The notes under the pieces: model-generated
The model's database searches: none
Told to the model about the DNA's origin: nothing
What the model saw: the letters and a program-made list of their open reading frames with translations, nothing else
Program-made: the position numbers and the translations under genes
Assembly (NCBI GenBank): GCA_003214815.1
Contig: QCLE01000007.1
Location: forward strand, 1-64,000
Length of the DNA stretch: 64,000 bases
Reading direction: 5' to 3'
DNA from: Prochlorococcus sp. AG-412-J13
GTDB lineage: Bacteria; Cyanobacteriota; Cyanobacteriia; PCC-6307; Cyanobiaceae
Shown here: in pieces, positions 1,659-16,742 of the stretch
Numbering within the stretch: the stretch's first letter is position 1
Layout of the letters: each line of letters starts with the position of its first letter

Positions 1659-1668
1659 ATGTGATTAA

Positions 1669-2853
1669 TTAGGCCACCATCTGTTTTGCAAACTTATCAC
1701 TTATTCCATCAGGAATAAATCTTGCGTAATTTTGTTGATGAACTTCAGAAGTATGACCCATGACAAAACTTATATCTTTAATAGTTAAACCAAGTTCAAC
1801 TGATCTTGCATGAGCTACTTTTGCGTATCTATGACGGAAGGCATAAGGAACTAAATCTTCTTTTAGTTTTTCTGCTTGTTTTTTAAATTTAATCCAAGTT
1901 TTATTGCGTCTTAATCTTCTCCCTAATGCTTCCCCTCCATTTCCTTCTTGTCATAAAGGTAGTAATTCCTCTTCATTAATAATTCATTCTAATAAATTCC
2001 AATCAACTAACCCTTTTCCATCTTGTATATATAAAGGAGCTAATTTTCTAGGTTCTGTTTTTTGTCCTTTAGTTCCTCCCATAGATTTTTCATACATAGT
2101 CCAAAGCTCATCATCTTTAACAACTAAAAAACTTAATTACTCAGGTCTTAAACCATAGACTCCAAGTAATTGATATGAAAACTGCCATTTCTTGTCTGGT
2201 TCAGAAGCTATTAACTGCAATATCTGAGCATCAGTTAAGGCATAGCCAATCCTTTTCCTTTTAAGAGTTTCTTGCATTTTTACAGGTGCATAAACCTTAG
2301 ATAACTTTCCTCTAATTACTGCATATTGAAGAAATTTTTGTAACGCTCTTCTTGCAATTTGTCTTGACCTACTTCCCTGTTCCCATTGTTCAAGTGACAA
2401 TGTCATTAACTCTAGGCCGTCTTGTGGTTTACCTTTCGATCTTTCTAGTAATTCTTGGACTTTACGGAGCACAGGGACATAAGATTTATTCCATGTTTGC
2501 TCGGAAGCGGTAGGACAGAATTTTTTAAAATCTGCAAATAATTCTTCAAAATTTATTTCGTGTCTAGAACTTGAATTTTCTACAAAGGTAGATAACTTAT
2601 AAAGTGATTTATCTCCTGACTATGAATAAAAGTTTTTATAAATTTCAATAGTTCTTCTAGCTCCTTCGTGTAATCCTCTATTACTCCATTCATAATTCAA
2701 AACTCTTGATTGATACTTACCTTCATCCCTGACTCCAAGCTTTACACTACCTCTACTTTCAACTAAATACCATTTAGCACCAGCGTGCATTTCTTGTCAC
2801 ATCATTTTTCTGGCTGACTTACCCCAATCTTGTAAGTTTGATTTCTTAGGCAT
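1669..2853 (-). pseudogene. Tyrosine recombinase (integrase), decayed by nonsense codons
   Basis: A single reading frame of 395 codons runs from ATG (2851-2853) to TAA (1669-1671) with no indel but five internal stops: TGA at 2797-2799, TAG at 2620-2622, TAA at 2137-2139, TGA at 1984-1986 and TGA at 1951-1953. The C-terminal part has tyrosine-recombinase signatures: AFRHRYAK with the conserved Arg, then FVMGHTSEVHQQNYARF with the GH pair and the catalytic Tyr. The N-terminal two-thirds has the SAM-like core-binding helices. It starts about 160 bases from a tRNA-Pro fragment and points away from it, the usual arrangement for a tRNA-targeting integrase. Confidence 0.85.
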
Positions 2854-3011
2854 TGAATTTGTAGAGCACTAGGTCTTTTTTTATCTGCATTGTGCAAAAG
2901 GCATGCGAAAAAGTCAATATTAGCCGACCAATTATGGACAATACAAAACAAAGTAATAAGGTTATATCTATTGTTATGACTAAAAACTAAAGTTATAGCT
3001 TATTTTGACCG

Positions 3012-3060
3012 GTTGCTTTGGGAGCACTAGATCGCAGGTTCGAATCCTATCGCCCCGACT
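3012..3060 (+). other. tRNA-Pro(UGG)-like 3' fragment, probable attachment site
   Basis: The sequence has an anticodon-loop-like CTTTGGGAG, a T-arm box (GGTTCGAATCC) and an acceptor end CGCCCCGACT, but no D-arm or 5' acceptor strand. This matches the 3' half of a bacterial tRNA-Pro with UGG anticodon. Such fragments are what an integrase leaves at an att site. A related, more decayed copy lies at 5972-6019. Confidence 0.75.
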
Positions 3061-3203
3061 CAATAAATCCAAGTCAAAAAAAGATTTCCCAAGTCTGTCT
3101 TTTTTATTTGTTTAAATTCTCAGATGATAAAGGGGCTCTAGGGGAGGCTCTATTTTGTAGTTACAAGTACGTATTGGTGCTTAATTAATTTAGCGGTGGC
3201 AGT

Positions 3204-3214
3204 AGTAAGCGTTT
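3204..3214 (-). repeat. Cassette end repeat (element A), copy 2
   Basis: AGTAAGCGTTT within GGCAGTAGTAAGCGTTTCAT. No minus-strand gene remains next to it, so it is an orphan end repeat just inside the tRNA fragment. Confidence 0.65.
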
Positions 3215-3377
3215 CATTTAGATTAGATATCCCTTAATAAATTAATTAATTAGTACTGCTTTAAAAACAGCTCTTTTTTAATTTAAACTTTTTACCTTAG
3301 ACGTCTCTTTTTTTTTGAGTAATTGTTTTGATTGCAATTCATAGCAAATATTGCTTTGATATAAAAAATACTATTCA

Positions 3378-3872
3378 ATGATTAAAGTCTTAATTACTCT
3401 TCTAACTTCATTTCTTATTTGGTTTGGCATTGTAAAAATATTTACCAAAGATCATGAAAATTCAATAAATATTCTTTCAAGTAAATTGTTGAATGATTTT
3501 ACTTTAATCTTTCGAAATATAGTTGATCTTATTGATTCTCTTTTTAAAAGCTTCATTCAAATCTATGAACTTTTAGGTACATTATTAAAAAATGTAGTTG
3601 GAATATCTAAGTCATTGATGTCTGCTTTTTTTCAATTTCTAAATCTCTTTAAAATAATAGGAATTACTTGTTTATCCTTTATTTCTTTATGTAAGGGATT
3701 ATTCCAGGAATCCAGAAAAATTAATCTATTCAATAATTTTGAATTAACACTTAATAATACTGATTCTCCCAAAAATAATGTAATTAAATTAAATGAAAAA
3801 ACAGAAGCAAATAAAAAGGAAGAAAGTTTTATTCCCTCTTTTTTAGATCGACTTTCATTTATAAATAAGTAA
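3378..3872 (+). CDS. Hypothetical 164-aa membrane-associated protein
   Basis: The N-terminus (residues 1-22) is a hydrophobic anchor or signal segment. Residues about 30-110 are strongly hydrophobic and helical with repeated LF/IF spacing, and the tail is polar (residues 120-160). No family recognised. The last codons (FLDRLSF) are encoded by a reversed element B core (3842-3858), so the C-terminus seems to have been formed by reading into a repeat. The ATG at 3378 is the first in frame and no strong ribosome site is visible. Confidence 0.55.
   Translation: MIKVLITLLTSFLIWFGIVKIFTKDHENSINILSSKLLNDFTLIFRNIVDLIDSLFKSFIQIYELLGTLLKNVVGISKSLMSAFFQFLNLFKIIGITCLSFISLCKGLFQESRKINLFNNFELTLNNTDSPKNNVIKLNEKTEANKKEESFIPSFLDRLSFINK
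3842..3858 (-). repeat. Element B core inside a coding 3' end
   Basis: TTTAGATCGACTTTCAT, one base different from the consensus, overlaps the last codons of the plus-strand gene ending at 3872. On the minus strand it would direct transcription antisense to that gene. Confidence 0.5.
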
Positions 3873-3943
3873 TCAGGCCATTGTATTGTTTTTTAATTTC
3901 ATTAATAGAAGTAGTTCAAACGAGGGCTACTAGTACTGGGAGC

Positions 3944-3954
3944 AGTAAGCGTTT
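3944..3954 (-). repeat. Cassette end repeat (element A), copy 3
   Basis: AGTAAGCGTTT followed by CATGAA, 40 bases beyond the 3' end of the minus-strand remnant at 3994-4349. Confidence 0.65.
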
Positions 3955-3993
3955 CATGAATAATATAAAAAAACAGATAATTCTTAAATATTT

Positions 3994-4349
3994 CTAATAA
4001 GAAAGTGATTCAAGGACTTTGCTTATTCTTATAAAATCAACTCCATTAGGATAAGAAATTGCTACAGATTTCACTCCTAAATAAGTATCAGACTCCACAT
4101 TTATAGAGGTTGATTGAGATAAATCTTTGCCAAATATTTTAATCCAATTATCAGTTTTATTCCCAAGATTCACATGATATCCATTTTGGGAAATAATTTT
4201 ACTAAATTTTGAAGACACATCTATCTAATGAAGATTTATAAGGTGTTATAACAAGGTCTAAGTTATATATTCCCTGAGAATTTAATTTCTGATGATTTGT
4301 GAAAATGGGATTAGGGAAACTGAAAAAGAGATGTTATTAATCTTTTCAT
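3994..4349 (-). pseudogene. Cassette gene with disrupted N-terminus
   Basis: The leader at 4350-4393 feeds an ATG (4347-4349) encoding MKRLITSLFQFP and then a TAA. A 74-residue frame (3994-4218) can only start at a GTG in another phase, and contains SKIISQNGYHVNLGNKTDNW. The likeliest reading is one secreted or soluble protein whose N-terminal part has lost frame. The 74-aa segment could still be translated from the GTG. The product is not recognised. Confidence 0.5.
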
Positions 4350-4393
4350 AAAAAAAGGAGCTAATTGCCCCTTATTTTAGATCGAATGTTTTT
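4347..4393 (-). promoter_or_regulatory. Element B leader: hairpin and U-tract abutting ATG
   Basis: On the minus strand an imperfect core (complement of TTTAGATCGAATG, 4376-4388) precedes arm GGGGC (4367-4371), loop AATTA, arm GCTCC (4357-4361), T7 and ATG. The arms differ from the copy at 473-518 yet still pair, with one G-T wobble. Confidence 0.6.
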
Positions 4394-4417
4394 CACATTT
4401 AATATAGCTGTGCAAGT

Positions 4418-4428
4418 AGTAAGCGTTT
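4418..4428 (-). repeat. Cassette end repeat (element A), copy 4
   Basis: TGCAAGTAGTAAGCGTTT, the longest match to the consensus, lies 12 bases beyond the stop of the minus-strand PDZ remnant at 4440-4868 and between it and the next element B leader. Confidence 0.7.
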
Positions 4429-4439
4429 AATTCATAAAT

Positions 4440-4868
4440 TTAAATTGAGGTTACTTTTTGTTGATTTGGCGAAAGTTCATTTTCTGGAAAAATTTCCTTT
4501 AAATTTTCTGGAAAGAAAAACTCTAATTGTCTCTTTAAATCGTCTTCATATATATATTCTTTGTTGGGGACTTTAAAAGTATCTCTTACTAATTGAACAT
4601 TTATTTTTTCCTTTTTACCTTCCTCATTAACTCTTAATAAGACTAATTTAATTGGCTTATCTATTAGTCCTTTCATGAGAGAAACTTCCTCTGTTATACC
4701 CATTACTTTAGTTGATTTACAATCTATTTTGATAATTAAATCATTTGGTTGAATGTCTGAGGAGGCGTCAGGAGAGTCATTTATTACAGATTAAATGTTA
4801 ATTCAGCATTATAAATAGAATTAGGTAAAGCAAGTGCAGATATTAGTGGGAATAAGTAGTCTTTTCAT
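4440..4868 (-). pseudogene. Secreted PDZ-domain protein, frameshifted
   Basis: The ATG at 4866-4868 starts a signal-peptide-like MKRLLIP that continues in a second frame as SALALPNSIYNAELTF. A third segment (in frame with 4440-4703) reads DSPDASSDIQPNDLIIKID, a typical PDZ carboxylate-loop and second-strand pattern as in CtpA/HtrA-type proteins. It continues through EEVSLMKGLIDKPIKLVLL. At least two frame changes separate signal and PDZ parts. The original was probably an exported protein with one PDZ domain. A degenerate element A (4855-4870) overlaps its start. Confidence 0.6.
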
Positions 4869-4871
4869 TTG

Positions 4872-5177
4872 TTAATCACAACAATCGTCATTTGTTAATG
4901 AAGCAGTCCAAGAGGATTCCTCCATTGTTGATAAGTCAACTCTATGAGTTGCCATCCAGTCAGCATTTGCTTCCACAAACTTTTGAACATTACCTTCTGG
5001 AGCTTGATGAATAACAATTATTCTTTGAGGATCTTCCTTGCTTACTCCTCTGAAAAGCGGCTTAATATCAAATTCTGAATGCCTTTTATCTGCTTCTGCA
5101 CTATCAAATATTGCAGCCCATTCATCGAAAGTGCTTTCAATTTTAAAAGTAAACACGGAGGTAACTGAACAAGGCAT
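4872..5177 (-). CDS. DUF3764 family protein
   Basis: A 101-residue protein with the pattern I associate with DUF3764 of marine picocyanobacteria: TFKIESTFDEWAAIFDS at the start, DIKPLFRGVSKEDPQRIIVI in the middle, then HQAPEGNVQKFVEANADW. The function is unknown; the fold is probably a ferredoxin-like dimer. The ATG abuts an element B leader and a degenerate element A lies past the stop, so it is an intact cassette. A decayed paralogue of the middle section lies at 22853-23030. Confidence 0.8.
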   Translation of the reverse strand: MPCSVTSVFTFKIESTFDEWAAIFDSAEADKRHSEFDIKPLFRGVSKEDPQRIIVIHQAPEGNVQKFVEANADWMATHRVDLSTMEESSWTASLTNDDCCD

Positions 5178-5220
5178 AAAAAAAGTAGCTAATTGCCCCT
5201 TATTTTAGATTAACTGTCAA
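5178..5220 (-). promoter_or_regulatory. Element B leader upstream of DUF3764 gene
   Basis: On the minus strand, TTGACAGTTAATCTAAAATA precedes GGGGC-AATTA-GCTAC, then T7 and the ATG at 5175-5177. One arm base is mismatched relative to the 4357-4371 copy. TAAAAT is a plausible -10 box, placing the 5' end near the GGGG. Confidence 0.6.
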
Positions 5221-5411
5221 CGACACTTATACTTTTTGTGCTTTTTCAAATATTGCCCTTCTAGTCAGTTTAGTTGACTTTTGGCAAGGATCTTAATGGG
5301 TTCTTATTTCATTTACCATACCATCATACCAATTAAACAGAGTCAATTCCTCTAACAGTTCCTCTAAGGCTATATAAGCCTAGATTTTCTCCTCTATCTT
5401 TACTATTTCAT

Positions 5412-5530
5412 TTATTTCCAAGCTTCTCTACGTCTAAGCAAGTTACTTAAAGACCCCTCAGCCCCATTTACATTATCAAAATTAGGTAATTGAACATCTT
5501 TTAAATTCCATCTCTGGAGCATATTCCCTA
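5412..5530 (-). pseudogene. Possible C-terminal gene remnant
   Basis: An open minus-strand frame ends at TAA (5412-5414) and reads NFLGNMLQRWNLKDVQLPNF followed by SLSNLLRRREAWK. It has no start codon and emerges from an A16/T16 homopolymer at 5538-5553. The composition is protein-like, so it may be the tail of a lost gene. Not recognised. Confidence 0.25.
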
Positions 5531-5537
5531 AGAAATT

Positions 5538-5553
5538 AAAAAAAAAAAAAAAA
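5538..5553. repeat. A16 homopolymer
   Basis: Sixteen consecutive A bases, the longest mononucleotide run I noticed in the window. It borders a truncated reading frame and would be prone to replication slippage or to sequencing error. Confidence 0.8.
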
Positions 5554-5971
5554 GAACTAAAGGAATATCTCGAAATAGTGTTAAGAGAAGAAAAAATCTA
5601 AAAAGAAAAAGTTCATTCCAAATCTAGAAAAATAGTAAAAAGTAAAAAAATTATTCTTTTTCTTCATCTATTTTTTCCTAATTTATTATTTTTACAAGTT
5701 TCATAAGCCTAGCAATAACATTATTTTTTCTTATCAGGCAGTTACAGCAAGCAATCAGAAATGAAAGATTGAAATCCTTATGTACTTAATAACTGGGAGA
5801 TAAAAAAGTCAAAGCTATAAAGATCAAAATTGGGATTAGAAATGCTTGTTGGAGATAGTGAAAAGTAGTATTGCAAGAATTTTCTTCTTCCAAAAGAAAA
5901 GTCCAAAAAAAGATTTAGATAATTTCCAATTATGAGGAATATTCTTTTTAGATTTATTTAGTATTTTCTCA
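5554..5971. other. Gene-free AT-rich stretch
   Basis: About 420 bases between the A16 tract and the second tRNA fragment. I see no convincing ORF, hairpin or repeat in it. Confidence 0.6.
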
Positions 5972-6019
5972 GTTACTTTGAGAGCACAAGGGGCCATATT
6001 CGAATACTTTTGCCCCGAT
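5972..6019 (+). other. Second tRNA-Pro-like fragment, probable old attachment site
   Basis: GTTACTTTGAGAGCAC, then a TTCGAA T-loop core and TTGCCCCGAT, aligns in the same orientation with the fragment at 3012-3060 but with many substitutions. The two define a direct repeat around about 2.9 kb of cassettes. Confidence 0.6.
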
Positions 6020-6048
6020 AATTATTTGTAATAATTTTAGCGAAAATA

Positions 6049-6194
6049 TTAGTCAATAAGGTAAGAACATTTCTTGTTTAATGCATTTTTAATTTTTAAA
6101 TCTGTTATTTTTTGTTCTCCCTTATTAATACTTTTCTTAAAGGCATTATTTAAAGCTTCACAATCGAAATATGATGTTTATCTTTATTATTCAT
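6049..6194 (-). pseudogene. Small frameshifted ORF
   Basis: An ATG at 6192-6194 starts MNNKDKHHI. After a one-base phase change the frame continues DCEALNNAFKKSINKGEQ and then DLKIKNALNKKCSYLID before TAA (6049-6051). It resembles a small cytosolic cassette protein with a broken frame. Family unknown. Confidence 0.35.
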
Positions 6195-6360
6195 GATGAT
6201 TAAAAATAAAAATTATCAAGAATGTCGCTGACATTATCAACTGAGAATTTAATTGAATCAATTTAATTAAAAAAAAAATTAACTAGTAATTACATCAAAT
6301 TAATATTAAAAAAGGGTAAAACTATCATGATAAATTTTGCCTTTTAGAGAAACATATATC

Positions 6361-6849
6361 TCAATAAATTGAGTTATTATTTAGCTTTTTATCTAAGTAA
6401 ATATTTTTACCAATTTCAAAACCTAATTCTTTTGCTCTCCCGCTATTTAGTTCAATAACAAAATTAACCTTTTCTTTTGAACCAATTAAAGGACATATAT
6501 CAAGCGCACAAGGTAAAACATTTTCTACGATATCAATTATCTTATCATTTTTAATAAAAATAATATCTAGTGGGATTAATGTATTTTTCATCCAAAAATA
6601 AACTTTTTCCTGAGGATCAAATACAAAAAGCATCCCTTGATTAGGGTGTAATTTTTTTACTCCCATAAGGCCAACTTCTTTTTCAACAACATCATCAGCT
6701 ATAAAAAGTGTTAAAAATTCACCTGATTTATAATTGTAATCAATGAAGGTATCAAATAGTCTTCTATTAGGTATTAAATCTGCCTTTAATTTAGTATTAG
6801 GGTATAAGTTAAAAATTAAGGAAAAAAATATTATAAAAAATAGCTTCAT
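6361..6849 (-). CDS. DUF192 family exported protein
   Basis: Residues 1-23 form a signal peptide (MKLFFIIFFSLIFNLYPNTK). The mature part carries the DUF192 core: VGLMGVKKLHPNQGMLFVF, then VYFWMKNTLIPLDIIFI, and later VNFVIELNSGRAKELGFEIG. At 162 residues it is the normal length for the family, a small beta-barrel of unknown biochemical role. The gene is transcribed away from the secreted-protein cluster that starts at 7114. Confidence 0.85.
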   Translation of the reverse strand: MKLFFIIFFSLIFNLYPNTKLKADLIPNRRLFDTFIDYNYKSGEFLTLFIADDVVEKEVGLMGVKKLHPNQGMLFVFDPQEKVYFWMKNTLIPLDIIFIKNDKIIDIVENVLPCALDICPLIGSKEKVNFVIELNSGRAKELGFEIGKNIYLDKKLNNNSIY

Positions 6850-6972
6850 TAATTAAAAGTATTACTAAAAAAAAATAGAATAATAGGAATTTCGTATTAA
6901 GTTTAATTTAAGAAATCATCCTTTTTTTACACTTTGAAATAATATTGTAAATTTTAAGCAATATATAAGAAG

Positions 6973-6996
6973 TTTTGGTATCCCAGTATACCAAAA
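6973..6996. promoter_or_regulatory. Perfect 9-bp inverted repeat in a divergent intergenic region
   Basis: TTTTGGTAT (6973-6981) and ATACCAAAA (6988-6996) flank a 6-base centre. It lies between the divergent DUF192 gene and the secreted-protein cluster, about 120 bases upstream of the ATG at 7114. It could be an operator for a dimeric regulator or an RNA hairpin. No U-tract follows on the plus strand. Confidence 0.45.
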
Positions 6997-7113
6997 AACA
7001 TCTTTTAAAGAAGGCAAAAAGACCCTCAGCCACTACTTTGTCTGGGTTTATCAATAGTAAGAATTTTCAAGAATAACTATGCTAATGTTTCAGCGTAAAC
7101 TATTTATTTTTGT

Positions 7114-7911
7114 ATGAAACTTTCTACAAAGCTCTTCATAACAACAGTAGCTACAGTGGGAGTCGGCCTGCTTTCACCATCGGTAAAAGCAGATACAGCT
7201 CCTGTCTCTAATGCATTTACGTTAGATACCGCATCTTTCGGACTTGGTGTAGCTGCACCTACAGTTGATGTAGGTAACACCGCTGTTGAGAAAGGGACTT
7301 TCACATATCGTACCTCTGTTGGAACTTCTGACAATTTCTCTGTTGGAACTGTATCCGCTATGGGTGCATCATCATCAGCATCATCAACACCTGATTATGA
7401 TGTAAGCTCAAATGCTGCTTTTGACGTAGCTTCAACTTCTCAAATAAATCAGGCAATTGGTAGTCTTCAAATTGGAGAAACAGAAACAACTATCGATCCC
7501 GCTACCAGCATTGAAACTACTCGAACTAGTTATTGGGGTAGAAGACGTGGAAGTAACACTACTACCACAACCGAAACAAATGATGGTGTTTCTGGAAGTG
7601 GGGTAGAAGCTGATTCTAGTTCAGGATCAATTTCAGGTACATTCGCTAAATCATTCGAAAGCAACGGTGACACTACAAACAATGTTACTGTTGATGGTGT
7701 TGGAACAAGTACTAACATCAACCTTGGAGATACTGCAAGTTTCACAACTCAAATAGCAAAGGTTGGTTCAGTTGATGGAATATCAACAGAAATTCCAACA
7801 GGTGGTTCAGCTGGAACTGCTAATGGTTCAGCAAATGGAAGTGTTAACACAAGCACATCCGCTTCTGCATCCAATTCTCAGTTTGTAAGTTCATTTATCC
7901 AAGCTTACTAG
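7114..7911 (+). CDS. Secreted Ser/Thr/Gly-rich protein with C-terminal F-x-S-F-x-Q-x-Y motif
   Basis: Residues 1-26 are a classical signal peptide ending SVKA. The mature 240 residues are low-complexity Ser, Thr, Gly, Ala, Asn and Val with alternating beta-type patterns (GTFTYRTSVGTSDNFSVGTV), a basic island (WGRRRGSN) and no Cys. The last residues are NSQFVSSFIQAY. Related patterns and the same terminal signature occur in the proteins at 8669 and 9361. Composition suggests a surface or extracellular fibre-like protein. A strong terminator follows. Function unknown. Confidence 0.75.
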   Translation: MKLSTKLFITTVATVGVGLLSPSVKADTAPVSNAFTLDTASFGLGVAAPTVDVGNTAVEKGTFTYRTSVGTSDNFSVGTVSAMGASSSASSTPDYDVSSNAAFDVASTSQINQAIGSLQIGETETTIDPATSIETTRTSYWGRRRGSNTTTTTETNDGVSGSGVEADSSSGSISGTFAKSFESNGDTTNNVTVDGVGTSTNINLGDTASFTTQIAKVGSVDGISTEIPTGGSAGTANGSANGSVNTSTSASASNSQFVSSFIQAY

Positions 7912-7923
7912 TTCAAAAAAAAA

Positions 7924-7949
7924 GAGAGTATTTTATTACTCTCTTTTTT
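7924..7949 (+). terminator. Intrinsic terminator after the 7114 gene
   Basis: GAGAGTA (7924-7930) pairs with TACTCTC (7937-7943), followed by T6. It separates the first secreted protein from the TPR gene. Confidence 0.8.
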
Positions 7950-7967
7950 ATTTAAATCTTAAGTATC

Positions 7968-8561
7968 TTGAAATTTCTTGTTCTTATTCTCCTTTTGTTA
8001 ATAAACCCAGTTTATTCAAAAAGCAACAAAAAACTTATTCAGAAGATTGAGAATTTAATTATAAAAGAAAATTTAGATGAAGCACTTAATTTAGTAGAAG
8101 ATATATCTACAAAAAAATTTAATTATTATTTCTTAAAAGGTAGAATTTACCAAGATAAGAAAAATGATACAGAAGCATTAATTAATTATTCAATCGCTCT
8201 ACAATACAAACCCAATAATTATAAAACTTATAATAATAGAGCATTAGTTAAAGGATCTTTAAAAGATCTTAAAGGAGCTATGAAAGATTTAAATAGGTCT
8301 ATAGAAATTAACTCAAACTATGCTGAAAGTTTTATAAATAGAGGAGTAACATTTAATGTTTTAAATGAACCTGAAAAGGCTATAAAAGATTTTACTAATG
8401 CTATACAAATAAATCCTCAAATATCAGATGCTTACTTAAATAGAGCAATAACTAACCAATACTTAGGTAACAAAGATAAAGTTTGTCCAGATCTAACTAA
8501 AGCACAAGAATTAGGCAATAAAGAAGTAATAAGCTGGATAAATATCTTATGTAAAAAGTAA
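7968..8561 (+). CDS. Exported TPR-repeat protein
   Basis: The frame starts at TTG (7968) with a short signal peptide (KFLVLILLLLINPVYS). Residues about 70-185 contain three to four tetratricopeptide repeats, seen in ALINYSIALQYKPNNYKTYN, AMKDLNRSIEINSNYAESF and AIKDFTNAIQINPQISDAYL. TPR proteins act as docking scaffolds. In the middle of a secreted-protein cluster it may assist assembly or export of its neighbours, which is inference from position only. Confidence 0.8.
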   Translation: MKFLVLILLLLINPVYSKSNKKLIQKIENLIIKENLDEALNLVEDISTKKFNYYFLKGRIYQDKKNDTEALINYSIALQYKPNNYKTYNNRALVKGSLKDLKGAMKDLNRSIEINSNYAESFINRGVTFNVLNEPEKAIKDFTNAIQINPQISDAYLNRAITNQYLGNKDKVCPDLTKAQELGNKEVISWINILCKK

Positions 8562-8668
8562 TACTTAGTACATGCATTTACCAAATTAAAATATGTTTTA
8601 GTAAACAAATGTTTCAGAATTAAAACTTTACTTTAAAAAATATTTTGCATTTAATAGTATAAATACCT

Positions 8669-9358
8669 ATGCACTCATTGTTAATGATGAAAAGTTTAAT
8701 AAAAATAATATTTTTAGGTAATTTAAGTTGTATATTTATGTTCACTTCGAACCAAGTGTATGCACAAGCAGTACAAAGCTTGACGGCACCTTCCATAGGT
8801 GATTTACCAACTTTAAATCTTGGAGACAGTGGTACTCTCAAGCAAACAATCACTTCAGGAAGTAAAGGGTCTTTAACTTTTGGTTCAAGTACTAGTTTTG
8901 GTGCAAGTTCTAGTTTAAATTCTACCCAAGGAGTTAAAACGAGATCTTTATCTGACGTAAGACTAGAAACTAATTTAGATGGATCAACTCAAAAAAATAT
9001 GATATCTAATACCCTTGGTGGTGAAGGATCTATTAGAGCTGAAATTTCAAATTTAAGAGCAAATAATGAAACGCCCACAAATGGCATAGATAGTACGGAT
9101 AGTAATTATACAAATGGAACTGCTCTACTAGAAGGTATTTCTTCATCTAACCGTCTTGAATTAGATGGTGAAAAAACAACTTTTACCTCTGAAGTACAAA
9201 CTATCCATAGCGAATCAGATTTCGCTGAAGTAATATCAGGTAATATAGAACAATCATCCTCAGTAGGTAGTGCTAGTTCTAGCGCTATCATTAATCATCA
9301 AACTGTAGTTGACATAGATACTAATCAGTTTATTTCTTCCTTCCAACAGGCATTTTAG
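8669..9358 (+). CDS. Secreted Ser/Thr-rich protein, paralogue of the 7114 product
   Basis: A signal peptide covers about residues 1-32, ending QVYA before QAVQ. ATGs at 8684 and 8687 are equally plausible starts giving a shorter leader. The mature protein is Ser, Thr, Gly and Asn rich, contains GTLKQTITSGSKGSLTFGSS and ends NQFISSFQQAF, which matches the ends of the 7114 and 9361 products. No Cys in the mature part. The next gene starts 2 bases past the stop, so the two are co-translated. Confidence 0.75.
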   Translation: MHSLLMMKSLIKIIFLGNLSCIFMFTSNQVYAQAVQSLTAPSIGDLPTLNLGDSGTLKQTITSGSKGSLTFGSSTSFGASSSLNSTQGVKTRSLSDVRLETNLDGSTQKNMISNTLGGEGSIRAEISNLRANNETPTNGIDSTDSNYTNGTALLEGISSSNRLELDGEKTTFTSEVQTIHSESDFAEVISGNIEQSSSVGSASSSAIINHQTVVDIDTNQFISSFQQAF

Positions 9359-9360
9359 AG

Positions 9361-9930
9361 ATGGTTTTTATAAAAAATATTTGTTTTTATGCAAAGATTA
9401 TAGCCTTAATAAATCTCTCATTTTTACTGTCTCCTCCAACTTATGGTCAGCTGGGATTAACTGAGAGAAACACTTCTACAGGTACTAGAAATACATTTTC
9501 TTACAGGATAAAATCTACTATTGGAACTTCCACTAATACAGAGGCTTCAGGAGAAGTAACTGCTGATGCTAACGCTACTTTAGTATTGAAACCAGGAAGC
9601 AAGATTACAAATAAATTTGGGAATGAATCTGGAGAGGCATCTGCTACCTTCGTAGCAACTCCAACTGGGGGGAATGTTGATTTAAAAGGAATAACGGGAG
9701 AAAATATTTTTGAATTTGATGAGGGAACTGTATTATCATCATCTGTTTCTTCATTAAAAAATTCCACAATAGTTGAAGACACTTCTGATTCTTCAAGTAA
9801 TTTAGATACCTTATCAAATTCTTCAATTTTAAATAAGGGCTCTTCTTCCTCTTTTGTTGTACAAGATACATCCGTGACTGTTGAATCAGGCTTTACAAAT
9901 TTTATTAATACTCTTGAACAGCAATTTTAA
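9361..9930 (+). CDS. Secreted Ser/Thr-rich protein, third paralogue
   Basis: A signal peptide ends near residue 29 (PPTYG before QLGL). The mature protein carries NTFSYRIKSTIGTSTNTEAS, which resembles GTFTYRTSVGTSDNF of the 7114 product, and ends FTNFINTLEQQF. Spacing of 2 bases from the upstream gene and 1 base to the downstream ATG (9932) indicates an operon. Confidence 0.75.
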   Translation: MVFIKNICFYAKIIALINLSFLLSPPTYGQLGLTERNTSTGTRNTFSYRIKSTIGTSTNTEASGEVTADANATLVLKPGSKITNKFGNESGEASATFVATPTGGNVDLKGITGENIFEFDEGTVLSSSVSSLKNSTIVEDTSDSSSNLDTLSNSSILNKGSSSSFVVQDTSVTVESGFTNFINTLEQQF

Positions 9931-9931
9931 A

Positions 9932-10537
9932 ATGAAAAAGTCTTTACCTATATATTTTCTAATTTATTTTGCCTTATGTATTTTCAATCAAAAAGCATTC
10001 AGTCAACAAACAAATAATTCCACTGCTTTAACAAACAGTGCAGCACCTTCTGCTTCTGCTGTAACTAGTGGAGGAACAAGTATAAATTATCAAACAAATA
10101 ATGCATATAATAATGAACAAGGTTTTGCACCTGGTATATTTTGTAGAACTCCAACTATTTATTTAGGTGGAACATTTTCTCAAACCGATCAAGATAATTT
10201 TGATCTTATTAATCAAAGTGGTACCTACACAGATGGTGTACAACTCAGTACTGGAATATTAATACCATTTGGTTCAAAAATTATAGACACATGTAAAAGA
10301 TTAGCTTCGACTATAACTACAGATAGAGAAATAGCTTCACAACTTTCTTTACTAAGAGCCTGCGCAGACTTGCAAAAAAATGGCATTGAAGTCTCCAGCA
10401 AGGTAATCAAGAGCTTACCATTATTAGCTCCATGCTTGGATATGGGACTAACTGCAGCCAATTTAAATCAAAATCTTGAAACAACCAATGAGGTCGAGTT
10501 ACCTTCTTTAAAACCTAAAACTATTAAATCAATATAA
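9932..10537 (+). CDS. Secreted protein with four cysteines
   Basis: I chose the ATG at 9932, one base past the upstream stop, because it places the signal peptide (MKKSLPIYFLIYFALCIF, cleavage near KAFS) at the N-terminus; the in-frame ATG at 9881 would add residues overlapping the upstream gene. The mature protein has an N/S/T-rich region, then a more globular half with GFAPGIFCRTPTIYLGG and LLRACADLQKNGIEV. The four Cys after cleavage could form disulfides in the periplasm. No family recognised. Confidence 0.75.
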   Translation: MKKSLPIYFLIYFALCIFNQKAFSQQTNNSTALTNSAAPSASAVTSGGTSINYQTNNAYNNEQGFAPGIFCRTPTIYLGGTFSQTDQDNFDLINQSGTYTDGVQLSTGILIPFGSKIIDTCKRLASTITTDREIASQLSLLRACADLQKNGIEVSSKVIKSLPLLAPCLDMGLTAANLNQNLETTNEVELPSLKPKTIKSI

Positions 10538-10540
10538 ATT

Positions 10541-10991
10541 ATGAAATTAATTATATACATATTTTTTTTTTAATCTTTTTGTGATCAATAAAAACTCTAG
10601 TGCTCATGATGAAAGATTTGCAGTATATTGTTCAAGTAATTTAGACAATACTGGTACTTGCTCTGATGAGAATAATCAGAAAGTCATTTGTAGTGTATCT
10701 ACTCACAAAAACTTAAAATGTGAAAGAAAAGTTTTAACTGAATATAACTGCCTCCAATATGGAAAGATACTCTCAAAACAGTCTCAATTCATTTGTGAAA
10801 AGACCATTAACTCTTTTAATAACAAACAATCTGATAACTCATCTTATTCACCATCAAAAAAAGAAGCTAACAATACAAAACAAATCATTTTTGATAAAAA
10901 TAAAAAAACTATTAAAGAAATTTATAAGGACTCATACTTTAATAAAAATGAAAATGAATCAAAAATTCAAATTGATACCTCAGTTTATTAA
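10541..10991 (+). CDS. Cys-rich secreted protein with a frameshift at a T10 tract
   Basis: The ATG at 10541 begins MKLIIYIFFF and runs into TAA at 10571 because of a run of ten T (10562-10571). With nine T the frame would join the ORF NLFVINKNSSAHDERFAVYC and continue to 10991. The mature part has about eight Cys (CSSN, TGTCS, VICS, KCERK, NCLQY, ICEK), suggesting disulfides. It is either a pseudogene or a slippage-controlled gene. It starts 3 bases after the previous stop, which supports it being part of the operon. Confidence 0.55.
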
Positions 10992-11007
10992 TTCCAAAAG
11001 ATTTATC

Positions 11008-11352
11008 ATGTCAACTCAAAATCTTTTAAAAAATTTTTTTATTTTTTTCTCAATTTTTTCAACGAATAAACTATTCTCTCAATCCTGTTTACCAAATGAC
11101 CCTCTCGCAATAAATCCTGGAAATTTGTGCCTTGAAAAAAACATATATCACCAACATATCAACAATTATCCAATGACAAATGGTTATGCTTCTCAAGGTT
11201 TTTATGGATCAGCTATTTCTCCAAATGTACCCGGACAAAAAATAGAACTTAATCAAACTAAAGATGGTTTTTTTACAAATTTAACAAACAACAACGGGAA
11301 TATAAAAATCGAAACCAGTACAGGAAAAGTTTTTAACTTTAATGCAAATTAA
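11008..11352 (+). CDS. Small secreted protein, last of the cluster
   Basis: An ATG at 11008 gives a signal peptide (STQNLLKNFFIFFSIFSTN, cleavage near KLFS) and an 88-residue mature protein starting QSCLPNDPLAINPGN, with two Cys and a G/N-rich middle (YASQGFYGSAISPNVPG). I prefer this start to the in-frame ATG at 10759 because it yields the leader and avoids overlap with the upstream gene. Function unknown. Confidence 0.7.
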   Translation: MSTQNLLKNFFIFFSIFSTNKLFSQSCLPNDPLAINPGNLCLEKNIYHQHINNYPMTNGYASQGFYGSAISPNVPGQKIELNQTKDGFFTNLTNNNGNIKIETSTGKVFNFNAN

Positions 11353-11499
11353 ATATATATTTTGAAGATAATAAACTCTGAATCTTCCTTAATTTATTTT
11401 TTATAAAGATAAAGAAGTTTTAAATGGTATGAGAAAAAGGAAAATATGAACTTGATCAATCGTGGCAAACGAATCACACAATATCCACTTTAAGAACAA

Positions 11500-11965
11500 A
11501 TTGTTGGGCCTATATCGGTATATGTTTTTGCATTAAACCTTACATTTTTGTTAGTCGGTTGATAAGTATGCTTAGTTAGAACTTTTTAGTAACAGAGATA
11601 AATTAAATCCCTTCATTACCTATCAAATCTTGTAATAAATATGTGTTGAGTTACAAAGATTCATCAAATAATACAAATGAAGTCTGCCTAGGCACGTGCT
11701 TCATACGATTGCCTAGTGGTTTCGAGAGAATTCAACTCTTTTTTACATAACAATCCAGGATCTGTATTCAGAATCCAACAAAAATTTTGAGGTAATTAAT
11801 TATTAATTTAAAAAGATTACCATTAGCAATCCAATATAAAAACTCAAAAGATCATTTTAGTTCAAAAGATTTTCTAACTTTTGCAGTTTAAATGAGAGAA
11901 CTGGAAGTTTCAGATGATGAAGCAATAAAGTTCACCATAGAAGAGATTTTGATTCTCTTGAGTAG
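11500..11965 (+). pseudogene. Decayed duplicate of the two-gene unit at 16441-16907
   Basis: The segment follows 16441-16907 through its upstream region and both small genes. A 48-base stretch is identical (11624-11671 and 16563-16610). The first gene has lost its ATG and its frame. The second has lost its ATG (ATTAATTTA for ATGAATTTA) and has a nonsense codon in AGTTTAAATGAG. Both copies have the same orientation. Confidence 0.8.
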
Positions 11966-11985
11966 TTATAAATGCATAAATAGTT

Positions 11986-12087
11986 ATGAATTATAAAAAA
12001 TCACCATTTTCAATCTTCAATAAAGAATGCAGAAAAATTGATTTTATCAAATTGGTTTATAGAAGAAGATTTCTATCCGAAATATAA
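11986..12087 (+). pseudogene. Third, truncated copy of the MNLKRSPFAI gene
   Basis: The frame starts MNYKKSPFSIFNKECRK, clearly like MNLKRSPFAIQNKKAK at 16743, then diverges and stops after 33 codons. It adjoins the decayed duplicate, so this family has been copied at least twice here. Confidence 0.5.
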
Positions 12088-12486
12088 TTTCATAAAGCTT
12101 CTGAGGTTGAGTATAAGTTAGATACAATTAAAACTCAAAATGTATTCATGATCAATAAAATCACAAGCTAGTAAAAATTTATTGTTTGGTAAAAAATATT
12201 CTTGGAATTAATTTAGTAGATATTAATTTAATGACTTAATTGATGTTAATTGATTTGTTTATATTATATTCTCATAGAAATTATATTTCAGTGTATTACT
12301 CATTATTTTTATCAGGGGGAATCAAGAAACCTCTCATAAATTCCAACTACCAGAGAGGATATTAAATTGATTTGTACTATATAAAGTCAATCTATGTCTT
12401 GGAGGAAACAAAGAATGTACTCATTGAGGTTTGGCCTAAATTAATTCATAACAAAGAAATCTAAAACTAACGAAATCAATGCAAAT
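12088..12486. other. Gene-free stretch with remnants
   Basis: About 400 bases with no ORF I can support. One possible hairpin (CCTCTC ... GAGAGG near 12330-12358) is present. Confidence 0.5.
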
Positions 12487-12497
12487 AGTAAGCGTTT
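12487..12497 (-). repeat. Cassette end repeat (element A), copy 5
   Basis: TGCAAATAGTAAGCGTTTCATTTA context. Directly beyond it on the minus strand is the end of an open frame reading KIHKFRLLREFEDEED then TAA, which looks like the tail of a lost cassette gene. Confidence 0.65.
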
Positions 12498-12761
12498 CAT
12501 TTAGTCCTCTTCATCTTCAAATTCTCTAAGCAAACGAAATTTGTGAATCTTGAAGAAAAAGAAGAAAAACTAGATGCACCTCTTTTTTAAAAGAATGAAA
12601 TATTGAAGAAGGCGGAGGAGTTATAAATAATATAACTACTTGCACCGCTTTTAAATAAGTCGCTCTAAATTAAGTTGCAATTAACTTTTAATTTATGTTG
12701 TTTCTAATCTCTTATAAATTTACGAATGCAAATGCCCAATAGAAGGGAGCAAAAATGTTAA

Positions 12762-12977
12762 AGGAATGGTACCAACAAAGAAGGTCCACAAAATAGACTA
12801 GATGGTTATGACGTCAAATCTTGGATTTTCTTACCTCAAAATGGAAACGGTTACTCTGTGGTAAATGTAGATTCTTTTGAAACTATTTGGCGTCAATGGC
12901 GAACCTGGAGAGAATTAATGGAAATTACTATTGAAACTTGTGCAAATTTAGATAAAAAAGTAGCACTATATTGTTAA
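12762..12977 (+). pseudogene. DUF3303-like protein, N-terminally truncated
   Basis: A 71-codon frame with no start codon reads LDGYDVKSWIFLPQNGNGYS and SFETIWRQWRTWRELMEIT. It parallels FEGFKVLNRVVNPEGANGW and HQNIWKWSSIWVDNFGVEI of the DUF3303 protein at 17204-17515. The 5' part is out of frame (ATG at 12755 leads to a stop). The plus-strand element A starts 2 bases past the stop codon. Confidence 0.6.
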
Positions 12978-12979
12978 TG

Positions 12980-12990
12980 AAACGCTTACT
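12980..12990 (+). repeat. Cassette end repeat (element A), inverted copy shared by two genes
   Basis: AAACGCTTACT on the plus strand, 2 bases after the stop of the DUF3303 remnant. The stop codon of the convergent minus-strand gene (12989-12991) overlaps its other end. This is the only copy in plus orientation that I found. Confidence 0.7.
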
Positions 12991-13102
12991 ACTTATATAT
13001 ATCGAGTAATTTTATATAAATTCCCAACAATACTAATATTGCTAAACCTATTCCAATAAATGAATTTGGATGATTACTCCAAATCTCATTTAAAATTTCC
13101 AT
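12989..13102 (-). CDS. 37-aa single-pass membrane micro-protein
   Basis: The ATG at 13100-13102 gives MEILNEIWSNHPNSF and a strongly hydrophobic helix IGIGLAILVLLGIYI with a short KLLDIYK tail. This is a typical picocyanobacterial one-helix micro-protein. Its TAG lies inside element A. No family assigned. Confidence 0.5.
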   Translation of the reverse strand: MEILNEIWSNHPNSFIGIGLAILVLLGIYIKLLDIYK

Positions 13103-13243
13103 AAAAGAATTATAGACAAAAAGAGTGGTAAAACTGCGGATAGTGATTTAATTCCTCATCAATGGCCAAAAGAATAAATAGCTTTTTAACCTATTTAGCC
13201 TTTTTATTTTTTAAAATATAAAAGATTTTAAATTCTTAATAAA

Positions 13244-13498
13244 ATGAGTAAATTTAAAGATAACTTTTCAAGCGAAAACTTTTACCCAGATAGTAATTAT
13301 TATCTTGAACAGGACAATACTCCTAAAGTGAACCCAATTTCAGAAGATCAAAAATCCACTATGGGGGGGGATTTTGAATGGCCAAATACCTATTGGTTTA
13401 TTGCGGAAAGAACAAACGGAAGGCTTGCAATGATAGGTTTCATGGCTGTCATTATTAACTACACTTTATTTGGATGGATAGCTTATCCAATCCTTTAA
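13244..13498 (+). CDS. hli: High-light-inducible protein (HLIP), long N-terminal form
   Basis: The C-terminal half has the HLIP chlorophyll-binding helix, AERTNGRLAMIGFMAVIINY, with the conserved E, N and R that ligate pigment in LHC-like proteins, followed by LFGWIAYPIL. A 50-residue polar N-terminal extension precedes it. HLIPs sit in the thylakoid membrane and protect photosystems during assembly and light stress. A G8 run (13363-13370) encodes Met-Gly-Gly-Asp just upstream of the domain. The next small gene starts immediately after the stop. Confidence 0.95.
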   Translation: MSKFKDNFSSENFYPDSNYYLEQDNTPKVNPISEDQKSTMGGDFEWPNTYWFIAERTNGRLAMIGFMAVIINYTLFGWIAYPIL

Positions 13499-13642
13499 AT
13501 GAGTAATTCTAATTTTGACAAAAATGGTATATATAAGTGTGGAACTCATTGGCTTCAATATACTGCGTTTGTTGTAACTACATTTGCTATTAATTTTAGC
13601 TGGGCGTTTTCAATGATGCGTATTTCCACCATTTCGCTGTAA
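13499..13642 (+). CDS. 47-aa membrane micro-protein coupled to hli
   Basis: The ATG (13499-13501) follows directly on the hli stop codon. The product begins MSNSNFDKNGIYKCGTHWLQ and continues with a hydrophobic helix TAFVVTTFAINFSWAF. Tight coupling suggests co-translation with the HLIP and a thylakoid location. Family not recognised. Confidence 0.6.
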   Translation: MSNSNFDKNGIYKCGTHWLQYTAFVVTTFAINFSWAFSMMRISTISL

Positions 13643-13732
13643 AAATATTAAAGTTCTGGAATTGTAATGGATATAACCCAATAAAATATTGCGTGATGCC
13701 TTGAAAAGTAGACTTTTATCCTTAAAAAAGTA

Positions 13733-13990
13733 ATGGTTAGATCTTACTGGTTAGTAAATTTCAATAGATTAAGGGTAAAAAGGTTTATCGAAAATAAAAA
13801 TAATAAAAATCAATTTTCTAAATATATGTTTATTGATTTTGGGAAGCTTACTTCTATATAAGGCAAAGAACCACCTGTTATAACAACTAGAGAAGAATTA
13901 AAGAAAGATGCAGCTAGAGAAGAATGGAAAAATTTAATTTCTCAGGGTTGGAGAAGAACCGAGGAAGTTTGGACAAAAAAAGATAGCTAA
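13733..13990 (+). pseudogene. DUF1651 family, one in-frame TAA
   Basis: The frame of 86 codons begins MVRSYWLVNFNRLRVKRF, has TAA at 13859-13861, and continues GKEPPVITTREELKK to NLISQGWRRTEEVW. It is clearly homologous to the intact gene at 15038-15283 (YWLINSNRSEVKRFMKN, NKPPVMTNT, LLSQGWKKIEKVW). Alignment places the stop at a Gly/Gly-Leu position. There are no other lesions. Confidence 0.75.
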
Positions 13991-14163
13991 GGTCTGCTAA
14001 TCCTTAAAAAGTTCAAATAATACTCAATTACTAACTAATAGCGTTGCAAGGAGTAAGAGTTTCATACTATTTAAATTATTTCTTCAAAAGTCGAAACGTA
14101 TAAATCTTGCATTTTTGCTAGCCAACTAACATTATCTTCCCAATTACTTTTATTTGTTTTTGA

Positions 14164-14886
14164 TTAGTTATATGTTTTCGAGGAGTTTTCGAGTAATCCA
14201 TTTAATTCTAAGATTTCTTCTTTACTAAATTCTCTATATTTTCCTGTTGGCACGTCTAACTTAATATTCATAATTCTTACACGCTTTAATGTCCGTACTC
14301 TATAGCCTAAGGCCTCACACATTCTTCTAATCTGACGGTTAAGCCCCTGTGTGAGTATTATTTTAAATTTTTTTGGACCCAATTGTTTTACCAAACAATT
14401 ATTAGTTATTGTGCCTAATATTTCAACTCCATTACTCATGCTTTGAATAAAGTCGCTACTAATCGGACGATTAACTTTTACAATATATTCTTTTTCGTGA
14501 TTATTTCTTGCTCTGAGGATTTTATTTACGATATCTCCATCATTAGTTAAAAAAAGCAATCCCTCACTAAGCTTATCTAATCTTCCGATAGGGAAAATTC
14601 TTTTAGGGTATTTAATGAAATCTATGACATTATTGGGTTCTACTTTTCTATCTGTTGTGCAAACAATTCCTACAGGTTTATTAAAGGCTAAGTATATGTT
14701 TTTTTTGCTCATTGATTTTTCTATTCTTTGACCTTTAACTTCTACTTGATCACTTTCTTCTAATTTGGTACCAATTTCTGGAATTTTGCCATTAATAGTT
14801 ACCTTTCCTTCTAAAATTAATCTATCTGCTTCCCTTCTAGAACAATAACCGACTTCGCTTAAATATTTATTTATTCTGATAGCCAT
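14164..14886 (-). CDS. rluF: RluF/RsuA-family pseudouridine synthase
   Basis: An N-terminal S4 RNA-binding domain (RINKYLSEVGYCSRREADRL, residues about 3-60) is followed by the catalytic domain with FPIGRLDKLSEGLLFLTNDG, where the Asp of GRLD is the nucleophile. ILRARNNHEKEYIVKVNRPI and QGLNRQIRRMCEALGYRV are closer to RluF (23S rRNA U2604) than to RsuA. The 240-residue length fits. It lies inside a small-gene island with an element-B-like leader upstream, so it may be an acquired or accessory copy. The RluF subgroup call is moderately sure. Confidence 0.8.
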   Translation of the reverse strand: MAIRINKYLSEVGYCSRREADRLILEGKVTINGKIPEIGTKLEESDQVEVKGQRIEKSMSKKNIYLAFNKPVGIVCTTDRKVEPNNVIDFIKYPKRIFPIGRLDKLSEGLLFLTNDGDIVNKILRARNNHEKEYIVKVNRPISSDFIQSMSNGVEILGTITNNCLVKQLGPKKFKIILTQGLNRQIRRMCEALGYRVRTLKRVRIMNIKLDVPTGKYREFSKEEILELNGLLENSSKTYN

Positions 14887-14918
14887 TTTGAATGTTTCTT
14901 TTTTATCTGCACTAAATA

Positions 14919-14961
14919 AAATAATTAGCTAATCTCCTCATATTTTAGATGGGCTGTCAAT
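14919..14961 (-). promoter_or_regulatory. Element-B-like leader upstream of the pseudouridine synthase
   Basis: On the minus strand ATTGACAGCCCATCTAAAAT is followed by a region with ATTAGCTAAT and an AT-rich tract. Here the ATG is about 35 bases further on, and the hairpin is less regular than in the cassette leaders. Confidence 0.45.
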
Positions 14962-15037
14962 TTTAGTTAATATTCTCATTGTTGAATTTCAAATAATTTT
15001 CATGAGTAAGTTCTTCCGCACAAATCTAACTCTTTTT

Positions 15038-15283
15038 CTAAATCCAAACTTTTTCAATTTTCTTCCATCCCTGAGAAAGTAATCTTTCATAAATTTCTCT
15101 AGCTAAATCTATTTCAACAGAAACTGTATTAGTCATTACTGGTGGTTTGTTTCCTAATCCTCCCACCATTTTTCCAGTATCTATAAACATATACTCAAAA
15201 ACTCCATCAATGCTCTTATGGTTTTTCATAAATCTTTTAACTTCTGATCTATTTGAATTAATCAACCAATAACATTTATCCAT
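15038..15283 (-). CDS. DUF1651 family protein
   Basis: An 81-residue soluble protein with the family layout: an N-terminal CYWLINSNRSEVKRF strand, a central GNKPPVMTNT loop and a C-terminal helix ending ERLLSQGWKKIEKVW. DUF1651 is known from Prochlorococcus and Synechococcus, and its function is unknown. A degenerate element A (15302-15312) lies between its start and the end of the SRAP gene. Decayed paralogues lie at 13733 and 17809. Confidence 0.75.
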   Translation of the reverse strand: MDKCYWLINSNRSEVKRFMKNHKSIDGVFEYMFIDTGKMVGGLGNKPPVMTNTVSVEIDLAREIYERLLSQGWKKIEKVWI

Positions 15284-15315
15284 TAATCTAACCTTGCAAT
15301 TAGTAAGCTTACGAT

Positions 15316-15954
15316 TTAAAACAAACTCATTTGATCATTTTCTTTTTTCTTTACATCTTCTATTAGCCAACCATAAGGTGACCAACCCATCATGATTGGC
15401 AATAACCCTTTTAATTCATCTGCATCTTTAACTTGCTCTGTCCATTGTTCTTCATATCCATTAGGTACTATTACAGGCATGCGGTGATGTAAAGGTTTAA
15501 TTAAAGTATTTGGTTCAGTTGTTAAAACGCAGCAACTCTCAAGTTCTGCTCCATCTGGTGAGGTCCACTTACTCCAAATTCCTCCCAACCAAAAAGTCTC
15601 ATAATTCGTTTTTCGAACAAGATATTTTTTTTCAAAAAAACCACTCGCAGGTATTAGACACCTTTTATGTTTCCAGCTTCCACTAAATAATTTTTTTTCT
15701 TCTACGGTTTCTGATCTTGCATTAAATGGTCTTGGTCTCATTTTATCAAATGGGGTTTTCGCCCAAGGGGAAATAAAGCCCCATGTCATAAAAGTAGTTT
15801 TAATTCTTCCTTCGTTTTTAATTACAAGCACAGGATCATTAGGTCTTATTAGATTTTGAGTCTCGTATTTAGAATCAAGACCAATAGGATAATCCTGTTT
15901 CAAAACCTTTGGCAAATTCTCAAATTTAGTTTTCAGCTCAAATCTTCCGCACAT
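15316..15954 (-). CDS. yedK: SOS-response-associated peptidase (YedK/HMCES, SRAP family)
   Basis: The protein starts MCGRFELK, so Cys2 becomes the N-terminal nucleophile that crosslinks to abasic sites in single-stranded DNA. Other SRAP motifs are RPFNARSETV, RCLIPASGFFEKK with the conserved Glu, and LHHRMPVIVP with the catalytic His. The 212-residue length is standard. It shields abasic sites at replication forks. Its position beside DUF1651 genes and cassette repeats suggests an accessory copy. Confidence 0.9.
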   Translation of the reverse strand: MCGRFELKTKFENLPKVLKQDYPIGLDSKYETQNLIRPNDPVLVIKNEGRIKTTFMTWGFISPWAKTPFDKMRPRPFNARSETVEEKKLFSGSWKHKRCLIPASGFFEKKYLVRKTNYETFWLGGIWSKWTSPDGAELESCCVLTTEPNTLIKPLHHRMPVIVPNGYEEQWTEQVKDADELKGLLPIMMGWSPYGWLIEDVKKKENDQMSLF

Positions 15955-16149
15955 TAATTTTTAAAATCTTTTTAAAACTAACTTAAACAAAGCAGCAAAT
16001 TTTCCTTATCTTAAATCTACTTTAAGTTTTCTCAAATAAAAATATAACATTTTTTTGATCTTAGACAGCTTTTCATCTAAATCATTAAAAGAAGATGTAG
16101 ATATTGAAAAGCTTCCTCAAATTTAATTTTAATGATTCAAACTTAAATT

Positions 16150-16296: not shown

Positions 16297-16545
16297 TTGA
16301 TGTGTTTATAGAGTCACATTATCTACCTGAAAGTTACATGCGAAACAGACCACAGTTGAAAATAATTTATATGAGTAACGAAAATATTTTTTCTCTCTGA
16401 CGTAATTCACTAAATAATTATATTCATTTTTAAATTTAGTTGTTGGTCCTCTATCCGTATATGTTTGTGCCTTAAACCGTACATTTTTATTAGTCGGTTG
16501 ATGAGCATGCCTAGTTAGAACTTAGTAGTAACAGAAATAAATTAA

Positions 16546-16731: not shown

Positions 16732-16742
16732 GGGAATTAATT

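Follow-up and report, generated by a model that had tools for sequence, protein, structure and literature searches.

What is built by a group of seven genes at positions 7114-11352 of a Prochlorococcus contig, and what does this group have in common with cyanophages? The window, i.e. the whole stretch of DNA analysed, comprises the first 64,000 nucleotides of contig QCLE01000007.1 of Prochlorococcus sp. AG-412-J13 (assembly total, 1.83 Mb). The seven genes lie on the plus strand in the order P1, TPR, P2, P3, P4, P5, and P6. A preliminary description of this DNA had taken their products for exported proteins, three of them (P1, P2, and P3) with a shared C-terminal signature, and had suggested a surface-structure or extracellular-fibre locus. 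Absent from that description is the kinship of P4 with the cyanophage protein gp165, which opens a second reading, that of a viral envelope-remodelling or lysis module. Overall, it is proposed, with a likelihood that falls somewhat short of even, that the locus encodes an envelope assembly of Sec-exported proteins, in which P4 is the core and tailed beta-rich proteins are the subunits, and that both cells and phages use it.

P4 and the cyanophage gp165 family

P4 of the window (P0004) matched phrog_1755 with an E value of 1.5e-6, and a P4 from Cyanobium did so with 3e-7. When host P4 and phage gp165 were aligned by hhalign, the probability was 96.9 (E 1.6e-10), and four cysteine columns are kept in 32/32 rows of the combined host and phage alignment. 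By profile and cysteine pattern, P4 is a member of the gp165 family (phrog_1755/848). With a podovirus gp165 as the query, 451 of 50,697 phage records matched at E 0.01; by the first word of their names these are Synechococcus (308), Cyanophage (78), Prochlorococcus (53), Marine (9), uncultured (2), and Tiamatvirus (1). Two scans of viral contigs gave at least 573 and at least 567 confirmed gp165 relatives, and 80 from each were kept as the phage loci described here. The viral scan with the host P4 alignment and the S-CAM7 scan gave no match.

In phages, gp165 is found beside gp166 and gp167. The three genes follow each other as gp167-gp166-gp165 on one strand in 70 of the 80 myovirus loci, and in the other ten the end of gp165 is at most 1122 nt from the locus start. 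In the T4-like phages P-HM1 and S-CAM9, the group is on the strand opposite to its neighbours. In podoviruses (T7-like), gp166 is followed by gp165 in 76/80 loci. Both gp166 and gp167 are small, Ser/Thr/Gly-rich, and mostly signal-peptide-like at the N-terminus by a crude rule, and they are homologous to each other (probability 92.6). Their C-terminal tails are conserved: Q[FYV][VIT][ST]E[ILV][TS] in 68/70 myovirus gp167, S[IV]F in 76/76 myovirus gp166, and TTTSLSVFSQ in 67/77 podovirus gp166. In the gp167 alignment, the final 12 columns are more conserved than any of the 94 body windows.

The module is listed as T4-like GC 235-237, as phrog_1755/848, phrog_650, and phrog_564, and as PSSP7_044/045 in podoviruses. 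The PHROGs matched by gp165-gp167 are catalogued without known function, as is the DUF6450 family of a neighbouring phage protein. A literature search, with most subscription papers outside its reach, gave no account of the locus or of the gp165-gp167 module. No such account was seen in passages of PMC10448857 and PMC2984593 either, and the gp165 named in PMC10448857 is unrelated.

Homologues of the phage partners are also encoded in two picocyanobacteria other than that of the window. L158 has a gp167 homologue (E 1.1e-11 with the gp167 profile) and a gp166 homologue (E 4.6e-5), and L137 has a gp166 homologue (E 2.2e-5) only a few genes from its P4 gene. A whole-genome search with phrog_650 was positive in 2/20 P4-bearing genomes, the single match in one of them (G410) being at the P4 locus, and in 0/14 controls.

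The operon and the tails of its proteins

The P2-P3-P4 order is kept in 13/13 tabulated loci, all of which were reached via P4, and a TPR homologue could be assigned in 8 of the 13. Three loci, those of the window, L027, and L030, have the full order from P1 to P6. Homologues of P1 were also recovered by phmmer (e.g. L029 with E 9e-32 and L030 with E 3e-14). The operon occurs in records named Prochlorococcus, Synechococcus, and Cyanobium. In picocyanobacteria its genes are kept together as a unit, yet its distribution is patchy, and the set looks mobile. Counting the window's own genome each time, P2 was found in 3/200 genomes of the genus, and P4 was found in 20/300 genomes of the family with a first profile, in 23/271 with a wider profile (matches inspected in part only), and in 11/386 across the phylum with the wider profile, five of them outside the family. 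The first genome-contig scan with P2 gave no match. Cyanophage contigs were noticed inside three cyanobacterial assemblies (G264:C5, G144:C13, and G826:C3). The first of these is among the 20 matches and at least the other two are among the 23; therefore, the P4 genome counts contain some phage copies.

P1, P2, and P3 are paralogues as judged by profile comparison. By hhalign, P2-P3 gave a probability of 97.9 (E 4.8e-13), P1-P2 of 94.4 (E 9.1e-8), and P1-P3 of 85.9 (E 5.2e-6), with scores of 46-86 versus 10-18 for reversed or shuffled controls. The preliminary description was correct about the genes and C-terminal ends of all three, and the tail pattern that it had pointed out recurs in homologous operons. 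A strict form, Fxxx[FLY]x[QSARE]x[FY] within the last 20 residues, devised post hoc from tails already viewed, is present in 10/13 P2 and 9/13 P3, some of which (L034 and L036) are labelled by position. It is present in 4/11 P1, where the eleven rows include one that the locus end truncates (L009) and one partial sequence containing X (L036). Homologues without the motif, which that description had named as evidence against a signal if they proved the norm, are thus a minority for P2 and P3, whereas most P1 rows lack the strict form. The strict tail is found in none of the TPR (8), P4 (13), P5 (9), and P6 (8) proteins, in 0/39 other ORFs (open reading frames) of the window, and in 0.57% of shuffled tails. 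It also occurs in 11/373 other ORFs; nine of these are the same P2 or P3 genes in overlapping loci, and the remaining two are an antisense low-complexity frame and, in L036, an ORF that looks exported and lies immediately upstream of P2. In a joint alignment of P2 and P3, 0/103 body windows reach the conservation of the last 12 columns.

Other lineages have other tails. Around P4 and/or P5 homologues in L131, L132, L133, L135, L137, and L158, several unannotated exported-looking proteins were observed, and proteins of these loci end in SLSVF, SLTVF, SYSVF, or PSVF forms (S[LYM][ST][VI]F-like). In three large-genome cyanobacteria (family f7), P4 lies beside small exported-looking proteins of a GETFV type, two each in L152 and L153; these partners share the end HET[ST]AG[VI]R, with QESSAGIR in one copy, and a related protein of G537 ends in HETAAGNR. 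Close to them in L152 is a protein that matches DUF3862 weakly (E 0.0043). From these sequences, a P4-type protein beside exported partners with a common, lineage-specific tail is a recurring theme.

Table 1. Coordinates of the operon, its divergent neighbour, and genes at other loci.
Feature	Position	Strand	Description
DUF192 protein	6361..6849	-	Divergent neighbour; Pfam DUF192 8.2e-28
P1	7114..7911	+	Ser/Thr/Gly-rich, exported-looking, 265 aa; tail QFVSSFIQAY; paralogue of P2 and P3 (hhalign)
Hairpin 3' of P1	7918..7949	+	Candidate terminator; fold -15.4 kcal/mol, z -3.85
TPR protein	7968..8561	+	Exported-looking, 197 aa, TTG start; Pfam TPR_1 3.6e-20
P2	8669..9358	+	Exported-looking, 229 aa; tail QFISSFQQAF
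P3	9361..9930	+	Exported-looking, 189 aa; tail NFINTLEQQF
P4	9932..10537	+	Exported-looking four-cysteine protein; cyanophage gp165 / phrog_1755 family member by profile
P5	10541..10991 (about)	+	Small Cys protein; frame broken near start as assembled
P6	11008..11352	+	Exported-looking Cys protein, 114 aa
GETFV-type proteins beside P4	L151 5581-6024; L152 7707-8597; L153 6660-7687		Shared C-terminal end
Two-transmembrane DUF6450 protein	L049 4430-4741; L161 10747-11106; also L162-L241		Phage loci

The tight spacing noted previously was confirmed, the gaps from P2 onward being 2, 1, 3, and 16 bases. The hairpin behind P1 (Table 1) is absent from the list of the terminator consensus scan; if it is a terminator, the P1 transcript may be separate. 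As to the seven exported proteins of the preliminary description, there are indeed seven genes, and six of their products have signal-peptide-like N-termini by inspection and a hydrophobicity rule. This rule is crude compared with SignalP and also accepted 17/39 other ORFs of the window; export of these six products is probable from their N-termini. P5 as assembled is the exception: the frame from its ATG at 10541 is closed by a stop directly behind ten consecutive T, and the one open from a GTG at 10581 has no signal peptide. The T run (within 10541-10600) may be a slippage (phase-variation) site or an error of the assembly, which look alike here. Uninterrupted P5 homologues are present in L027, L030, and L031. 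Except for the TPR protein, no operon protein exceeded a curated Pfam or NCBIfam cut-off. None of the seven matched a PADLOC family at E 0.01, i.e. known anti-phage defence was not matched.

The structure models of two operon proteins are weak. The AlphaFold2 model of P4 (pLDDT 63) has a beta hairpin (79-87/98-106) and a 35-residue helix (115-149), and that of P3 (pLDDT 61) has two long strands (37-63 and 157-185, 27 and 29 residues) with a beta-rich middle, which hints that P1, P2, and P3 may be elongated and beta-rich. The fold searches gave leads only: for P4 by Foldseek, a best E of 2.3, with TolC-type chains (by title and length) at E 5-9; for P3, a phage tail protein at 8.9e-3 and, from E 0.2 upwards, Ena fibres and pores of the aerolysin type or lysenin; best Z scores of 3.9 and 2.7 in the VIA fold search; and a marine phage protein (E 7e-3) as the best BFVD match. 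Sequence searches of the PDB gave nothing for P4, and three matches of no weight (E 0.8-1) for P2 and P3.

The operon sits in a variable part of the genome. At 87-90% identity, six relatives align with the window to the right of about 13.17 kb; in the stretches compared, none has a match of at least 150 bases inside the cluster. The nearest relatives that carry the operon are G178 and G150. In G178, the block and a few other ORFs lie between dxr-like and ferredoxin-like genes (L004 4424-12962), and a DUF192-like ORF flanks the operon as in the window (L004 6573-7064), these names being given by inspection. The dxr-like and ferredoxin-like genes of the window (52475-54051, also named by inspection) are adjacent and only 2 bases apart; therefore, the operon is placed elsewhere than in G178, and the junction of these genes may be an insertion site. 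The cyanobacterial small RNAs Yfr11 and Yfr13 flank the cluster at 1507-1659 and 12341-12438 (1-20000 searched). No tRNA was found in the window and no plasmid relatives were found. By ORF inspection, 28796-40205 has the look of a nitrate-assimilation and molybdenum-cofactor cluster.

Possible functions of the cellular operon and the phage module

In the mechanism proposed here, P1, P2, and P3 would be paralogous beta-rich subunits sent to the periplasm or the surface, and their tail, about F-x3-[FL]-x-Q-x-[FY], would dock or polymerise them. P4, with its beta hairpin, long helix, and four conserved cysteines, would be the core or anchor; the TPR protein may aid assembly, and P5 and P6 may be accessory. 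In cells, the operon would most plausibly build an outer-envelope or surface structure. Cyanophages would use a pared-down form, with gp165 as the core and gp166 and gp167 as the tailed partners, on the same envelope and probably late in infection, for envelope remodelling or lysis. We infer the joint assembly of these proteins, the role of the tail, the location of the product, and the timing of its use by phages. A wider proposal, which we regard as more doubtful, is that an undescribed exported-protein assembly, made of a P4/gp165 core and lineage-tailed partners, is common to cyanobacteria and many tailed phages, and that phages deploy it on or against the outer envelope of the type of cell able to carry it.

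Several results weigh against the proposed envelope assembly. By profile, gp166 and gp167 are not detectably homologous to P1, P2, and P3 (probability 0.2-15), and the parallel between the cellular and phage sets is therefore one of layout and of P4. P4 was not found in L158, the locus of the gp167 homologue, and phrog_650 was not found in 18 of the 20 P4-bearing genomes. Windows at least as conserved as the tail number 79/105 in P3 alone, 44/216 in P1, and 18/77 in gp166. No such window exists for P2 and P3 jointly, so the tail is a common feature of the paralogues and not the best-conserved part of each, and as tails vary by lineage there is no universal signal. Both structure models are of low confidence, and none of the fold matches is significant.

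Lysis or egress is a serious rival, given the order of the phage genes beside a two-transmembrane protein and a terminase, although we consider it rather unlikely. On this view the family would be, at root, a tool of phage egress: at lysis, gp165-gp167, together with the DUF6450 protein as a possible holin, would disrupt the outer membrane. The operons of cells would then be captured or ancestral copies for programmed lysis, release, or competition. The DUF6450 gene is directly upstream of gp166 in 57 of the 60 podovirus loci with room for it, a small-terminase homologue is present in 67/80 podovirus loci, after gp165 in the common orders, and in P-SSP7 tail-fibre genes precede the module. The lysis genes of T7 sit in the corresponding part of the genome. 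Genes of Rz/Rz1-type spanins overlap, as do PHM1_197 and PHM1_196 of P-HM1 as annotated; for gp44 and gp45 of P-SSP7 to overlap, gp45 would have to begin upstream of the start annotated for it. However, by a simple pattern, an o-spanin lipobox is present in none of 75 gp166, 69 rows called gp167 (about five of which are gp166), and six window proteins, and the catalogues give neither DUF6450 nor the three gp families a lytic or any other function. In myoviruses, the two-transmembrane gene is found in 41/80 loci and, in the gene orders given, lies on the opposite strand, and a cellular set of about seven genes is larger than a lysis tool would lead one to expect.

Both remaining explanations appear weaker than egress. 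The proposal of the preliminary description, that P1, P2, and P3 are subunits of an extracellular fibre and the operon a self-contained surface-fibre locus (the phage copies then modifying the surface, e.g. as a block to superinfection), is unlikely. The low-complexity paralogues occur in several copies, the hairpin may end the P1 transcript apart as for an abundant subunit, and the P3 model has elongated strands and weak Ena-fibre matches; but the fold matches and the model carry the weaknesses described above, and the curli pore (0/8), the curlin repeat (0/10), and the usher (0/10) were not found in operon-bearing genomes. The homology of P1, P2, and P3, the recurrence of their tail, and the P2-P3-P4 order thus uphold part of the earlier interpretation; a surface structure or fibre as the product and a sorting role for the tail are suppositions. 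It is very improbable that the terminal aromatic tail is an outer-membrane beta-barrel signal for the BAM complex and that P1, P2, and P3 are outer-membrane proteins. Their tails do have F or Y as the last residue and more aromatics before it, yet the residue at -3, Q in each of the three window tails and in the majority of the other motif-bearing P1-P3 tails, is unlike the beta-signal. Moreover, SQ, ID, or GVR closes the tails of phages and of other lineages, and the low-confidence P3 model has no barrel.

The gp165-type genes are widespread in cyanophages (the 451 records above), and the searches found no function assigned to them. They could be tested through a cellular operon that shares this core protein and is present in records bearing the names Synechococcus and Cyanobium. 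Should the module rupture or coat the outer envelope, it would matter for the way in which cyanophages exit from, or protect, their hosts. Holin and spanin genes of cyanophages often go unrecognised. Lineage-specific tails would represent a type of sorting or assembly tag that is new.

Comparison with known systems

The operon is like curli in grouping genes for several proteins that are exported and probably beta-rich, and like chaperone-usher pili in having exported subunits with conserved terminal segments. Both candidates were rejected, given the genome searches above: among 14 controls, CsgG was positive in four, and the curlin repeats and the usher PF00577 were each positive in one, E. 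coli. PEP-CTERM and LPXTG systems also combine low-complexity exported proteins with a short conserved C-terminal signature. In those systems, the motif is followed by a hydrophobic helix and a basic end; the chains of P1, P2, and P3 stop at the motif with neither. Since gp165-gp167 are catalogued without function, the literature search gave no account of them, and curli and chaperone-usher genes were not found in the genomes tested, the system is taken to be of a new kind, in that it fits no characterised kind found; its mechanism is a proposal.

The closest counterpart is the cyanophage gp165-gp167 module. The two differ in that P1, P2, and P3 have no detectable homology to gp166 or gp167, the tail sequences are not the same, and no counterpart of TPR, P5, or P6 was noticed beside the phage genes. 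The P4 gene of L137 does have a gp166 homologue beside it, and homologues of both are found in cellular genomes other than that of the window. P4 has the same four cysteines as gp165, and in cells and phages alike tailed low-complexity exported proteins are encoded beside a P4-type gene.

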